DNA of 39,276 nt from Salinivibrio siamensis (GTDB lineage: Bacteria > Pseudomonadota > Gammaproteobacteria > Enterobacterales > Vibrionaceae), in the NCBI RefSeq assembly GCF_001996005.1, contig NZ_MUFB01000005.1, positions 17,891 to 57,166 of the forward strand. The letters are read 5' to 3'. Of the stretch, positions 35,629 to 39,200 are shown in pieces (within the stretch, counting starts at the first letter, position 1; each line of letters starts with the position of its first letter). The notes below the pieces were generated by a model. That model did not search any database. It had not been told where the DNA came from and saw nothing but the letters and a program-made list of their open reading frames with translations. Made by a program: the position numbers and the translations under genes.

Positions 35629-35661
35629 TGCCATTCAATACTTGGCGTTGATGATGATAAT

Positions 35662-35676
35662 TGTTATGTTATCACA
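35662..35676 (+). promoter_or_regulatory. Zur-box-like operator of the zinc operon
   Basis: TGTTATG-T-TATCACA has the 7-1-7 geometry of the gammaproteobacterial Zur box (TGTTATA-N-TATAACA) and matches 12 of 14 arm positions. It lies 26 bases before the first start codon of the operon, where it would overlap the promoter. This supports zinc-repressed expression of the downstream genes. Confidence 0.7.
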
Positions 35677-35701
35677 TTACTTATATGGCGCGGAAGTTGG
35701 T

Positions 35702-35989
35702 ATGTTTCGGCGATTGATCGTCCATCTGCTGTTTGTTTTGCTGCTCAGCCAAGCTGGGCTGTGGGGGCATCATCACCTCGATACTTTCACTCCAACGCAT
35801 CACAGTGAGCACTGCAGCGCCTGCCACTTGGTGCCACCCGCCCTCTTAGCTTATGCTGTCACAGCACCTGCGCCCACCTATGTGGTCAACGCAATTATTA
35901 CCCTTTCTAAGCCACCACGTGCTTACCACATCGCCATCGCCTTTTCGGCGCGCGACCCACCTAGTCGAATAAATACCGCAATGATTTAA
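35702..35989 (+). CDS. Small membrane-anchored His/Cys-rich protein (DUF2946-like)
   Basis: A 95-residue protein heading the zinc operon. Residues 5-21 form a signal peptide or membrane anchor (LIVHLLFVLLLSQAGLW). Next comes a metal-ligand-rich stretch with HHH at 23-25, HH 33-34 and HSEHCSACH at 34-42 (Cys38, Cys41). A second hydrophobic segment spans about 46-68, and a SARDPP motif lies near the C-terminus. The CxxC plus terminal R-x-PP pattern resembles DUF2946 proteins, but the match is from memory. The frame extends upstream to 35642 through the Zur-like site, so ATG 35702 with GGAAG before it is preferred. It may bind or sense zinc at the membrane. Confidence 0.75.
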   Translation: MFRRLIVHLLFVLLLSQAGLWGHHHLDTFTPTHHSEHCSACHLVPPALLAYAVTAPAPTYVVNAIITLSKPPRAYHIAIAFSARDPPSRINTAMI

Positions 35990-36014
35990 CCCATTTATTC
36001 ACTAGGAGAACCCA

Positions 36015-36707
36015 ATGAAAACGCGTTTTTTACCCAATGTTATCGCCATGGCCATCGCAACCGCGTCCACAGCCACGCTCGCCGAAGAAGCCAACTATCA
36101 GTCGTTCGATGCCCATGTGCACGGTGAAGTCACGGCAAGCCTTGCCCAAGACGGTGAGCGTGTGCTGATTGAACTGACCGCACCCGGCCATGATGTGGTT
36201 GGGTTTGAGCACCACCCGAAAAATGCCGCCGACCAGCAAACACTTGAAGATGTTTATGCGCTGCTGCGTGATGGTGGGAAACGCTTCCAGCTTGCTGAAG
36301 CGGCGAATTGCCAGCTGGTCGAGGCCAAAGTCACCAGCAGTTTTAGCGACTACGATGAGCATCACGGCCACGATGAGCACCACGGCCACGATGAGCACCA
36401 CGGCCACGATGAGCAACATGACCACGACGAGCACCACGGCCACGATGAGCAACATGACCACGACGAGCACCACGGCCACGACGAGCACCACGGCCACGAT
36501 GAGCATCATGGGCATGATCACGGTAACCACAACACCTTATCAGCGAACTACCAATTCGTTTGCCAAACCCCGCAAGCCTTCACCGAATTGCAAACTGATT
36601 GGTTTAGCCTGTTCCCTAACACAGAAACCATCAAAATTCAGGCCTTTACTGATGATAAGGTCTGGGTAGACACCTTGAATCGTGCCAAGTCGCACATCCA
36701 GTGGTAG
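36015..36707 (+). CDS. zrgA: Periplasmic zinc-binding protein ZrgA (DUF2796) with His-rich repeats
   Basis: A 230-residue exported protein: signal peptide 1-23 (ending ATLA), DUF2796 domain with FDAHVHGEVTASLA and GFEHHPKNAADQQ (30-110), then nine hexapeptide repeats D-E-(H/Q)-H-(G/D)-H at 114-167. These carry 25 histidines and are followed by the conserved C-terminal part. Two cysteines, Cys99 and Cys183, flank the repeats. Vibrio ZrgA is the periplasmic zinc binder of the Zur-regulated ZrgABCDE importer, which sits in the same msrA/tamA neighbourhood in V. cholerae. AGGAG precedes ATG 36015. The gene lies 25 bases after the small protein. Confidence 0.88.
   Translation: MKTRFLPNVIAMAIATASTATLAEEANYQSFDAHVHGEVTASLAQDGERVLIELTAPGHDVVGFEHHPKNAADQQTLEDVYALLRDGGKRFQLAEAANCQLVEAKVTSSFSDYDEHHGHDEHHGHDEHHGHDEQHDHDEHHGHDEQHDHDEHHGHDEHHGHDEHHGHDHGNHNTLSANYQFVCQTPQAFTELQTDWFSLFPNTETIKIQAFTDDKVWVDTLNRAKSHIQW
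36354..36515 (+). repeat. Nine 18-bp tandem repeats inside zrgA
   Basis: Nine in-frame copies of an 18-base unit (typical unit GATGAGCACCACGGCCAC) differ at only a few positions. Two copies are the variant encoding DEQHDH. Near-identical tandem DNA repeats can change in copy number by slippage or recombination without shifting frame. Confidence 0.95.
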
Positions 36708-36720
36708 TGAACAAGGAGGC

Positions 36721-36739
36721 GGGGCGCATCCAGCGCCCC
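36721..36739 (+). promoter_or_regulatory. Hairpin between zrgA and zrgB
   Basis: GGGGCGC-ATCCA-GCGCCCC is a perfect 7-bp stem placed between an ideal AAGGAGG (36713-36719) and the zrgB ATG at 36748. Unfolded, the spacing is 28 bases, too long for initiation; folded, it is about nine. There is no T-run. Confidence 0.6.
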
Positions 36740-36747
36740 TGTCAGGC

Positions 36748-37443
36748 ATGATAACCATCGAACAACTACGTTTTACTTGGCCAGCTCAGCCGCAACCGAT
36801 CTTAGATATCGATAGCTTTGCGGTCGGTGAGGGCGAGCATGTATTTTTAAAAGGCCCCAGTGGCAGCGGGAAATCCACGCTACTGAGCCTGATTGCAGGC
36901 ATTCATACCCCACAATCGGGAACGCTAACGGTCAATCATCAAGCGCTGACCGTACTGAATGATCGCCAAAGGGATCAATTCCGTGCTAACCATATTGGTT
37001 ATATTTTTCAGCAATTTAATCTGCTGCCCTATTTATCGGTGATTGATAATGTCACCGTCCCGCTGCGCTTTTCTCACACGCGGCGTCAGGCACTCAGCCA
37101 GCCTGCACACCAAGAGGCCGCCAATTTACTCGATAAGCTGGGCCTTCCCGCACACTGTTACCATCAGCCAGTGACTGCGCTGAGTATCGGCCAGCAACAG
37201 CGGGTCGCCGCGGCACGGGCATTAATTGGGGCACCGGCGTTAATTATCGCTGACGAGCCGACCTCTGCGCTCGATGCGGACACCCGCAATACCTTTATTC
37301 AGTTGCTTCAAGACCGCTGCCGGGAAGCCAACAGCAGCTTATTGTTTGTCAGCCATGACAGCCAATTGGCGCCCTTATTTGACCGCGATGTCTCGCTTCC
37401 CGCGCTTAATCGTGCCATACATCGCGAGGAGGCCAACCAATGA
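36748..37443 (+). CDS. zrgB: ABC transporter ATPase of the Zrg system (LolD/MacB type)
   Basis: A 231-residue ATPase with Walker A GPSGSGKST at 36-44, a Q-loop in YIFQQFNLLPYLSV, signature LSIGQQQRV (Ile instead of the common Gly), Walker B LIIADEPTSALD and H-loop VSHD. By sequence it is the LolD/MacB class, which drives FtsX-like permeases rather than classical import. The frame opens at 36682 inside zrgA, but the family start is MITIEQLRFTWP at 36748. It overlaps zrgC by four bases (ATGA). The letter zrgB follows operon order in Vibrio and is from memory. Confidence 0.9.
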   Translation: MITIEQLRFTWPAQPQPILDIDSFAVGEGEHVFLKGPSGSGKSTLLSLIAGIHTPQSGTLTVNHQALTVLNDRQRDQFRANHIGYIFQQFNLLPYLSVIDNVTVPLRFSHTRRQALSQPAHQEAANLLDKLGLPAHCYHQPVTALSIGQQQRVAAARALIGAPALIIADEPTSALDADTRNTFIQLLQDRCREANSSLLFVSHDSQLAPLFDRDVSLPALNRAIHREEANQ

Positions 37444-38699
37444 TTTCACTGTTAGGATTGGCAGGGCAAAGCCTCAAGAATCGCCGCGCCACCGCCCTGC
37501 TTTCTTTGCTGACCGTCACCATCGCCGTGGTGCTCTTGCTCGGGGTGGAAAAGGTGCGCACCCAAGCCAAAGCCAGCTTTGCCAATACCATCTCCAACAC
37601 CGATTTAATTGTCGGCGCCCGCTCCGGTCCGATCAATTTACTGCTCTATTCCGTGTTTCGCATCGGTAACGCTACCAACAATATCGGCTGGGACAGTTAC
37701 CAGCGCCTTCGTGAGCATCCGGATGTGAGTTGGACCATCCCCATTTCACTGGGGGACTCTCACCGCGGCTTTCGCGTGGTCGGCACCACCAATGATTACT
37801 TTGACCATTATCAATATGGTCAAAAACAACCACTGGCCTTTCGCCAAGGCGGCCCATTTTCCGGCTTATTTGATACCGTGATTGGCGCCCAAGTGGCAAG
37901 AGAGCTGGGATACAAGATGGGCGATAGTCTGGTCATTGCCCATGGACTGGCCGACAAAGGCTTTAATCAGCATGACAACTTGCCCTTTACGGTCACTGGG
38001 ATCTTGGCGCCCACTGGCACCCCCGTCGACCGTAGCGTACATGTGTCGCTCGAAGCCATCGAAGCGATTCATGTCGGCTGGGAAAGTGGCGCACGACTCG
38101 GCCAAGGCCTCACCCAAGCGCAAGCGCAACAACGCGAGCTACAACCAGAACAACTGACCGCGGTGATGGTGGGACTAAACAGCAAAATCAAAACCTTTGC
38201 CGTCCAGCGCTGGGTTAATACTTATCCACGCGAACCATTAACCGCCATTATGCCCGGTATTGCCTTGCACGAGCTGTGGGGCATGATGCGAGTTGGCGAA
38301 CAAGCCCTGTTGGTGATCTCTGGCTTTGTGGCCGTCGCCGGGCTGTTGGGTATGCTCTCAAGCCTGCTCACTAGCTTGAACGAGCGTCGACGCGAAATGG
38401 CAATCTTACGTGCGATGGGCGCGCGTCCTTTGCATATTATTTTGCTATTGGTCAGTGAGGCGGTCGCGATCACTCTTGCAGGGATCGTCTCTGGCGTGTT
38501 CCTGCTTTATGGTGGACTCGCTCTAGCACAGCCCTATATTCTCAGTGAATTTGGCTTATTCTTACCGCTCGACTGGCCGTCCTCTTATGAGCTTTCATTG
38601 ATGGCCGGAGTGTTAGTCGCTGGCTTTATCGTGGGATTAATTCCGGCCTGGCGAGCCTATCGACAGGCGCTCGCCGATGGCATGACAATTAAGGTGTAA
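37440..38699 (+). CDS. zrgC: FtsX/MacB-type ABC permease of the Zrg system
   Basis: A 419-residue permease with the FtsX/LolCE/MacB topology. One N-terminal membrane segment (about 17-35) is followed by a large periplasmic domain (about 40-285) and three C-terminal segments (about 288-310, 332-360, 387-408). NERRREMAILRAMGARP just before the third segment is the coupling-helix hallmark of the family. Such permeases usually act mechanically on periplasmic partners; here ZrgA is the obvious candidate. The start overlaps the zrgB stop. Confidence 0.92.
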   Translation: MISLLGLAGQSLKNRRATALLSLLTVTIAVVLLLGVEKVRTQAKASFANTISNTDLIVGARSGPINLLLYSVFRIGNATNNIGWDSYQRLREHPDVSWTIPISLGDSHRGFRVVGTTNDYFDHYQYGQKQPLAFRQGGPFSGLFDTVIGAQVARELGYKMGDSLVIAHGLADKGFNQHDNLPFTVTGILAPTGTPVDRSVHVSLEAIEAIHVGWESGARLGQGLTQAQAQQRELQPEQLTAVMVGLNSKIKTFAVQRWVNTYPREPLTAIMPGIALHELWGMMRVGEQALLVISGFVAVAGLLGMLSSLLTSLNERRREMAILRAMGARPLHIILLLVSEAVAITLAGIVSGVFLLYGGLALAQPYILSEFGLFLPLDWPSSYELSLMAGVLVAGFIVGLIPAWRAYRQALADGMTIKV

Positions 38700-38702
38700 C
38701 AG

Positions 38703-39200
38703 ATGAAAAAACGGATAACGCTCGGCCTTATCGCTTTACTCAGTGGCCTGTTAAGCTCACTGGCGTGGGCAAGCAGTGAGCCACTCACGCTAGATTGGAT
38801 TGATTTGGTCCCCGAGCACGAACGCGCCCAATTTGATAGCCGCGGGATGCCGGAAATCAGCCACGACAGTGAGAATCCACAAAGTCTTGTCGGCTCAGTT
38901 CGCCCGGAGCTCAACAACAGCCAGGTCAAAATCCCCGGCTTTGTGATCCCTCTAGAAGGCGACGATAAAGTGGTGACGGAATTCCTGCTGGTGCCCTTTC
39001 TTGGCGCCTGTATCCATGTCCCACCGCCGCCACCTAATCAGATTGTTTATGTAAAGTTTGCCGGCGGCGCGCCGATTCAACAACTATGGGATGTGGTGTA
39101 TGTCGAGGGCACACTGAAAACCGAGCATATAAGTCATGACTTGGCAGAAGTGGGATATGTGCTACAAGGCACCGAATTAACTGACTACGACGACGGATAA
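38703..39200 (+). CDS. zrgD: DUF3299 exported protein of the Zrg system
   Basis: A 165-residue protein with a signal peptide (about 1-23, ending LAWA) and a DUF3299 domain: QVKIPGFVIPLEGDD and FLLVPFLGACIHVPPPPPNQ, where Cys103 and His105 are possible metal ligands. It starts three bases after zrgC, so it is co-transcribed. Its molecular role is unknown; position suggests periplasmic help to the Zrg transporter. A fifth gene (zrgE in Vibrio) is not seen in the remaining 76 bases. Confidence 0.88.
   Translation: MKKRITLGLIALLSGLLSSLAWASSEPLTLDWIDLVPEHERAQFDSRGMPEISHDSENPQSLVGSVRPELNNSQVKIPGFVIPLEGDDKVVTEFLLVPFLGACIHVPPPPPNQIVYVKFAGGAPIQQLWDVVYVEGTLKTEHISHDLAEVGYVLQGTELTDYDDG

Follow-up and report, generated by a model that had tools for sequence, protein, structure and literature searches.

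The question raised by this locus is how zinc would be delivered to the cell by an operon whose ATP-binding cassette (ABC) pair resembles MacB and LolCDE. The locus lies at positions 35658–39200 of a 39,276-nucleotide stretch of the Salinivibrio siamensis genome (contig NZ_MUFB01000005.1, positions 17,891–57,166; the whole stretch is called the window below). It is a zrgDACBE operon headed by a binding site (box) for the regulator Zur, that is, the Salinivibrio member of an already described system. The element newly presented here is a conserved set of three His together with Asp residues in the periplasmic domain of the permease ZrgB, which is a candidate zinc site of this permease in view of its conservation. 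We consider it fairly probable that this Zur-repressed operon serves zinc acquisition, with ZrgA handing zinc to the periplasmic site of ZrgB, ZrgC driving a mechanotransmission, and a net supply of zinc as the outcome.

An earlier note, made from the letters of the window, had pointed to a likeness to Vibrio ZrgABCDE and described the mechanism of that system as little described. The likeness proved to be orthology, with ZrgA exceeding the cut-off of the equivalog model NF047873 (198.8 bits, cut-off 185). The remark on the mechanism did not hold, as structures, knockouts, and Zur control have already been published and what is in dispute is import versus export. The first zrg knockout study is reportedly that of Sheng in 2015. 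According to published work, zrgA is required for growth in low zinc and is repressed by Zur (PMC9820375, PMC9817125). The former paper also demonstrates zinc binding by ZrgA and a requirement for this protein in a znuA mutant, and remarks on the MacB-like permease; the latter covers Zur repression and the main role of zrg in V. parahaemolyticus. Furthermore, the structure of PA4063 has been determined (PMC8561739), and the P. aeruginosa pair was argued to be a MacB exporter of pyochelin-cobalt (PMC11481552).

The Zur-boxed zrg operon

The Zur box was located at 35658–35680 (TAATTGTTATGTTATCACATTAC) on the forward strand, which also carries the five genes of the operon. Its core (35662–35676), matched exactly at G000:C45:53552–53566, coincides with the Zur site that had been proposed from inspection. 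The box scored 24.7 with a 23-bp position weight matrix trained on 78 of 120 non-Salinivibrio regions upstream of zrg, of which the remaining 42 gave no site above 10 within 600 bp; seven Salinivibrio rows were left out of the training set, and some of the 120 regions share a genus or a species. No other independent site in the 39 kb scored above 4.4, leaving the box 20 bits ahead of every other site in the window when its own shifted register is set aside, and the best score in 300 one-kb Markov shuffles was 14.8. Such a box was also observed 357–360 bp before zrgA in five other Salinivibrio genomes (L033–L037). A plain short palindrome was rejected as evidence of a Zur site, since its 13 matches versus 11.0 expected are uninformative, and only the trained matrix therefore separates the site. 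A looser pattern allowing at most one mismatch gave 42 matches in the S. siamensis genome versus 32 for a backward control, so that only matrix-scored sites were used for the regulon. High scores were obtained at znuA/znuC (30.0), a ribA-like gene (29.4), and an L31-like ribosomal gene (26.7), whose names were assigned by eye, the latter two lying in loci L250 and L252; four further pattern matches scored 14.2–18.3. The boxes at znu, ribA, and rpmE2 are likely to fit a Zur regulon of the Vibrio type, for which the targets were taken from PMC8248653.

Following the box, five co-directional open reading frames (ORFs) are arranged in the order zrgD, zrgA, zrgC, zrgB, and zrgE, where zrgB denotes the permease and zrgC the ATPase according to the Vibrio naming. 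They correspond to the genes listed by the earlier note and comprise a small His/Cys membrane protein of 95 residues (zrgD-like, 35702–35989), a His-repeat periplasmic zinc-binding protein (zrgA, 36015–36707), a LolD/DevA-like ABC ATPase of 231 residues (zrgC, 36748–37443), an FtsX/MacB_PCD type VII permease (zrgB, 37440–38699), and a DUF3299 periplasmic protein (zrgE, 38703–39200). The first gene was read from the ATG at 35702, which has GGAAG upstream; a TTG start at 35642 would overlap the Zur box. zrgC and zrgB overlap by 4 bp. The operon probably ends at zrgE because a gap of approximately 240 bp separates the end of this gene from the start of the next one downstream. In a promoter scan, the Zur box was devoid of sigma-70-like sites, and the terminators predicted were not convincing (4 found versus 3.3 expected by shuffling).

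The matches of ZrgA, the ATPase, the permease, and the DUF3299 protein all exceed their Pfam cut-offs. ZrgA scored 157.3 bits against PF10986 (cut-off 27.4), ZrgC scored 109.3 bits against PF00005 (ABC_tran), and ZrgE scored 145.2 bits against PF11736 (DUF3299); ZrgC stayed below the cut-off of all 25 best NCBIfam models among the 203 matched. For the ZrgD-like protein, neither Pfam nor NCBIfam yielded a match at E up to 0.1. In an alignment of 26 distinct sequences of this protein, its own included, an HHxxHxC motif was seen by eye in most rows and a C-terminal RxPP in many but not all. Loci of Vibrio, Photobacterium, Enterovibrio, and Aeromonas have relatives at the corresponding position, with V. 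cholerae ZrgD outside this comparison. For ZrgE, the region GACxHxPPPPxNQ is invariant, and C103 and H105 form a Cys-x-His pattern in 41 of 41 Zrg-type rows. A pattern search of 17 sister-type DUF3299-like rows found CxxC at the matching place in 8, neither pattern in 9, and CxH in none. A metal site at the Cys-x-His of ZrgE is plausible from this alignment. The structural relative of ZrgE is 4hsp, which is PA4066 (PMC8561739).

Of the 150 genomes sampled for the family, 127 contain ZrgA, as do 36 of the 274 sampled for the class; 32 of these 36 exceed the cut-off. The association of the genes largely holds among these relatives, with a few exceptions. At the family level, 19 of 20 loci picked from the 127 ZrgA-bearing genomes are linked and one is an orphan zrgA. 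At the class level, 29 genomes have a permease of at least 400 bits, and ZrgA over the cut-off is present in 27 of them; it was not found in G326 or in G166, where the permease is located at a contig end. The genes are together in 22 of the 27. Contig ends interrupt the locus in G200, approximately 9 kb separates the genes in G159, and in G290, G396, and G415 they are distant from each other or on separate contigs. Five class genomes have ZrgA over the cut-off and no permease of at least 400 bits. These class-level linkage counts, like the MerC counts given below, were tallied by hand from listings. Among the best 80 named loci, ZrgA, the ABC pair, and DUF3299 are together in 75. Of the remaining five, three are truncated at contig ends, and two, from Thiohalocapsa, have the permease and DUF3299 but lack a ZrgA match in their vicinity. 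Several relatives were also found with zinc-starvation genes, namely those of the Fur family, COG0523, DUF1826, PRA-CH, and ZnuA.

Invariant residues of the permease ZrgB

ZrgB matched FtsX (PF02687, 67.4 bits) and MacB_PCD (PF12704, 41.4 bits). Its AlphaFold2 model (pLDDT 84.6, pTM 0.75) contains helices at residues 16–48, 284–315, 330–371, and 382–414, with a large periplasmic domain between the first two. A fold search using this permease gave 5xu1 (Z 24.1), LolCDE chain E (20.8), HrtB (18.8), and MacB (17.5), and Foldseek agrees, which confirms the suggestion that the operon carries a MacB/LolCDE-type ABC pair. The protein is 100% identical to the permease of Salinivibrio proteolyticus DSM 19052 (L115). 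In one other Salinivibrio genome, the zrg permease is split into two ORFs (L037:2878–3967), by mutation or assembly error.

The candidate zinc site is encoded within 37602–38072. Its residues D55, D106, H168, H178, D197, and H211 are invariant in all 123 distinct Zrg-type permeases, and H108 is present in 121 of them. Sister permeases were gathered by a search with the Zrg permease alignment and then with the sister alignment; sampled pairs of Zrg-type and other permeases share 20–39% identity. Across clades, the five residues D106, H168, H178, D197, and H211 occur together in 166 of 170 permeases. The four losers (L243, L244, L317, and L298) lose all three His together and keep D197. With these four set aside, a comparison of 138 Zrg-type permeases with 28 others, L315 among the latter being intermediate, leaves only 23 near-invariant columns at a mean identity of 27%. 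Three of these columns are His, three Asp (D55 included), and one Arg, and the rest are Gly, Pro, Leu, and Ala; the His and Asp among them all lie within the periplasmic domain. E. coli LolC, LolE, and MacB lack H168, H178, and H211; D106 is matched in LolC. The permease contains no Cys, and within its helices no His is kept in at least 90% of the 123 Zrg-type rows. Zinc is probably handled at the periplasmic side of the permease, as this distribution of residues suggests. Judged by titles and abstract openings, the literature matches listed contain no description of the invariant permease His or of His-loop permeases.

A distant type VII ABC pair was observed at L244:2665–5478, where it adjoins a ZnuA-like protein (PF01297, 135.8 bits) and the His site of the permease is lost. 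L317 resembles this locus by similarity, and the distant group consists of L243, L244, and L317.

ZrgA and the His loops of sister permeases

H34, H36, E65, and H172 of ZrgA correspond to His35, His37, Glu66, and His184 of site 1 in V. cholerae ZrgA (PMC9820375), and each of them is kept in 46 of 49 aligned rows. C99 and C183 match the V. cholerae disulfide pair, each Cys being present in 49 of 49 rows, and the structural relatives are 8ezw and 7ahw. The DEHHGH-type His loop of ZrgA is encoded by an 18-bp tandem repeat present in 8.6 copies (36352–36505). Among five other Salinivibrio loci, the ZrgA ORF ranges from 201 to 288 residues. zrgA was also observed in other surroundings. At L100:1557–8302, it lies within a COG0523-DUF1826-zrgA-znuC-znuB-znuA operon (COG0523 by eye) with no ABC pair of its own adjoining; at L083, it adjoins a Fur-family gene and ZnuA, and at L089 a TonB receptor (by eye). 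A short ZrgA relative is located directly before a HupE/UreJ-type membrane protein in L112 and also, by eye, in L111. The contexts in which zrgA lacks a pump of its own would fit a role in zinc gathering in general.

Many sister permeases possess a His-rich loop inside the permease, directly after H211. A loop of at least 6 His was found in 0 of 122 permeases with a neighbouring zrgA versus 23 of 40 without one (Fisher p ~2 × 10−17, kinship ignored). Here, a neighbouring zrgA is a match over 30 bits within 5 kb, a definition that a very diverged ZrgA could escape; 8 permeases with less than 2.5 kb upstream were set aside, and downstream length was no filter. A tree was constructed without the loop columns for 84 of the 162 usable permeases, comprising 44 with ZrgA (32 hand-picked for diversity and 12 random) and all 40 without. 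On this tree, both traits require six or more changes (gains plus losses) on branches with good support, and the zrgA neighbourhood and the loop never change in the same direction in independent pairs. The Zrg-type clade includes 12 tree permeases without a neighbouring zrgA, of which L299, L303, L308, L310, and L318 hold 6–44 loop His, L324 has 3, and six have none. Three of these six (L239, L240, and L241) have zrgA elsewhere in the genome and were recoded as having ZrgA; most other genomes of the group were examined at the locus only. This pattern is suggestive, though not proof, of ZrgA in trans and a built-in loop being two ways of feeding one site.

The sister loci L237, L287, L288, L289, and L292 each contain at least one of the COG0523, DUF1826, Zur-like, and MerC genes. 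A permease subclade was observed behind an alkaline phosphatase gene (PF00245) at L231:4234–8392, L301:1443–3680, L306:6409–8712, and L307:1133–3387, which places a periplasmic zinc enzyme next to a type VII ABC pair. The alkaline-phosphatase-linked loci also hold a small DUF3299-like protein, in which CPFC was read for L301, L306, and L307; Pfam scans of three of these small proteins gave no family, and their likeness to DUF3299 was judged by eye.

Routes of zinc delivery and comparison with known systems

The proposed mechanism would proceed as follows. When zinc is scarce, Zur would leave its box and zrgDACBE would be expressed, as is expected from the site and the published Vibrio work. 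ZrgA would gather periplasmic zinc by its HxH...E...H site and His repeat, and would pass it to the site, composed of three His plus two or three Asp, that conservation points to in the periplasmic domain of ZrgB. ATP turnover by ZrgC may then move this domain by mechanotransmission, as the MacB/LolCDE fold suggests. The net effect would be a supply of zinc to the cell, either by passage through ZrgB or by release to another carrier. As the membrane helices contain no conserved His or Cys, we lean slightly toward a release at the periplasmic face.

Several observations weigh against this mechanism. A PA4065 mutant of a znuA zrmB strain was reported without a relevant change in zinc, although the same mutant did raise a zinc-demand reporter (PMC11481552). 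E37, E287, E315, E340, and D413 are kept in at least 90% of the rows within the helices of ZrgB, leaving a transmembrane path possible, and H178 is located in a low-confidence loop of the model (block 171–180, mean pLDDT 58). Furthermore, 17 of the 40 permeases without a neighbouring ZrgA lack a rich loop, three of which have ZrgA elsewhere, and the tree-aware loop test was not significant (5–6 independent pairs, sign test p 0.25–0.5).

The earlier note had assumed that the ABC pair is used instead of a Znu-type importer. This is correct inside the operon, whose five proteins contain neither PF01297 nor PF00950 at E up to 0.1, but not genome-wide, since the S. siamensis genome has two ZnuA matches and four ABC-3 matches (three of the four at 238–275 bits). 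No ZIP match was found in this genome. Judged from this gene content, zrg is a second zinc system here and not a replacement for Znu. It is a serious possibility, which we place somewhat below even, that ZrgBC is a genuine ABC importer, with ZrgA as its solute-binding protein and the ZrgB dimer as the path of zinc across the inner membrane (PMC9820375). The loss of zrgA in a znuA background was accompanied by an approximately 100-fold cost of survival in low zinc (PMC9820375), which is consistent with import, as are the acidic residues kept in the helices. Also in its favor, three near-complete genomes (G193, G334, and G292) carry zrg with no ZnuB, ZnuA, or ZIP match, and zrg in them is accompanied by a Zur box and by a Fur-family gene, which was assigned through Pfam in L105 and by eye in L106 and L095. 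Their gene content supports a zinc supply by zrg without Znu. However, zrg as the proven sole importer of these genomes is weakened by a MerC match at the zrg locus in all three, which makes another conduit possible. Among the seven zrg genomes with no or weak ABC-3 match, G288, G398, and G274 have ZIP matches, G274 also having ZnuA, and the seventh, G166, was outside the ZIP and ZnuA comparison; none of these genomes was found to show zrg as the only possible zinc route. The type VII fold assigned to ZrgB by the fold search and the helices devoid of conserved His or Cys also argue against import. To our knowledge, import is not established for the type VII ABC fold.

MerC-like membrane proteins were repeatedly observed next to genes of the Zur-like, DUF1826, and zrg types (L095, L105, L106, L292, and L299), and are a possible zinc conduit. 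MerC as a general partner of zrg was rejected, as there is none in the S. siamensis genome and matches occur in 12 of the 29 genomes whose permease reaches at least 400 bits versus 39 of 245 others (counted at E up to 0.001, with 4 of the 51 below the cut-off).

More tentatively, and at clearly less than even likelihood, ZrgBC may belong to a Pseudomonadota-wide class of type VII ABC systems that have an invariant zinc site of three His and three Asp in the periplasmic domain of the permease, use cytoplasmic ATP to release zinc or hand it over in the periplasm to a separate conduit or an enzyme, use an interchangeable collector, and form no channel. As parts of this same joint reading, the conduit would be ZnuB, ZIP, or a MerC-like protein, an enzyme may be thought of in view of the alkaline-phosphatase subclade, and the collector would be either ZrgA in trans or the His-rich loop beside H211. 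Its odds are reduced because conserved acidic residues occur in the helices.

For the candidate zinc site itself, the alternative that the invariant His and Asp are structural or partner-binding rather than zinc-binding appears unlikely. It can draw on the matching of D106 in LolC and on the retention of D197 in the four permeases without the three His; however, these four lose the three His together, and the His-rich insert by H211 must have changed six times or more on branches with good support. The export of a metal-bound metallophore, as proposed for PA4063–PA4066, is improbable for ZrgBC, as the MacB-like fold and the pyochelin-dependent cobalt accumulation in PA4065 mutants (PMC11481552) are outweighed by the same residues being invariant in Vibrio, Pseudomonas, and other permeases, by several relatives lying with the zinc-starvation genes named above (Fur family to ZnuA), and by no MacA or TolC gene being recognised by eye among the window ORFs or in the 4.8 kb downstream, although TolC need not adjoin.

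Two laboratories have read the same kind of gene set differently, one as a zinc importer and the other as a metallophore exporter. The invariant residues and the ZrgA/loop pattern name where zinc should be handled, so that the dispute becomes testable by point mutants. If the permease acts only on the periplasmic side, as the preferred mechanism leans toward, mechanotransmission would be applied to a metal ion.

Compared with ZnuABC, the zrg operon shares Zur control and a role in zinc, and ZrgA can even sit in a znu operon (L100), whereas no ZnuA or ABC-3 domain was found in the zrg operon. With the type VII ABC systems LolCDE, MacB, and HrtBA, it has in common four helices, a large periplasmic domain, and a LolD-like ATPase. 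It differs from MacB in having the ATPase and permease on separate genes, which are fused in MacB, and the scores against the MacB equivalog model were 123.6 bits for the ATPase and 19.1 bits for the permease (cut-off 966). The LolD equivalog model similarly gave 164.1 bits against 307.75 and the LolC-E model 32.4 against 362.45, and the three invariant His of ZrgB have no counterpart in the E. coli proteins, as described above. The P. aeruginosa set PA4063–PA4066 has an orthologous ZrgA (7ahw) and DUF3299 protein (4hsp), and other Pseudomonas permeases share the invariant residues of ZrgB, the P. aeruginosa permease itself being outside the alignment; it is set apart by the pyochelin-cobalt export proposed for it (PMC11481552). 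From the ZrgABCDE of V. cholerae and V. parahaemolyticus, the Salinivibrio system differs in that the His loop of its ZrgA originates from an 18-bp array of variable length and in that it is known here from sequence alone. The two are the same in their gene types, the equivalog-level ZrgA, the upstream Zur box, and the ZrgA site 1 and Cys pair.

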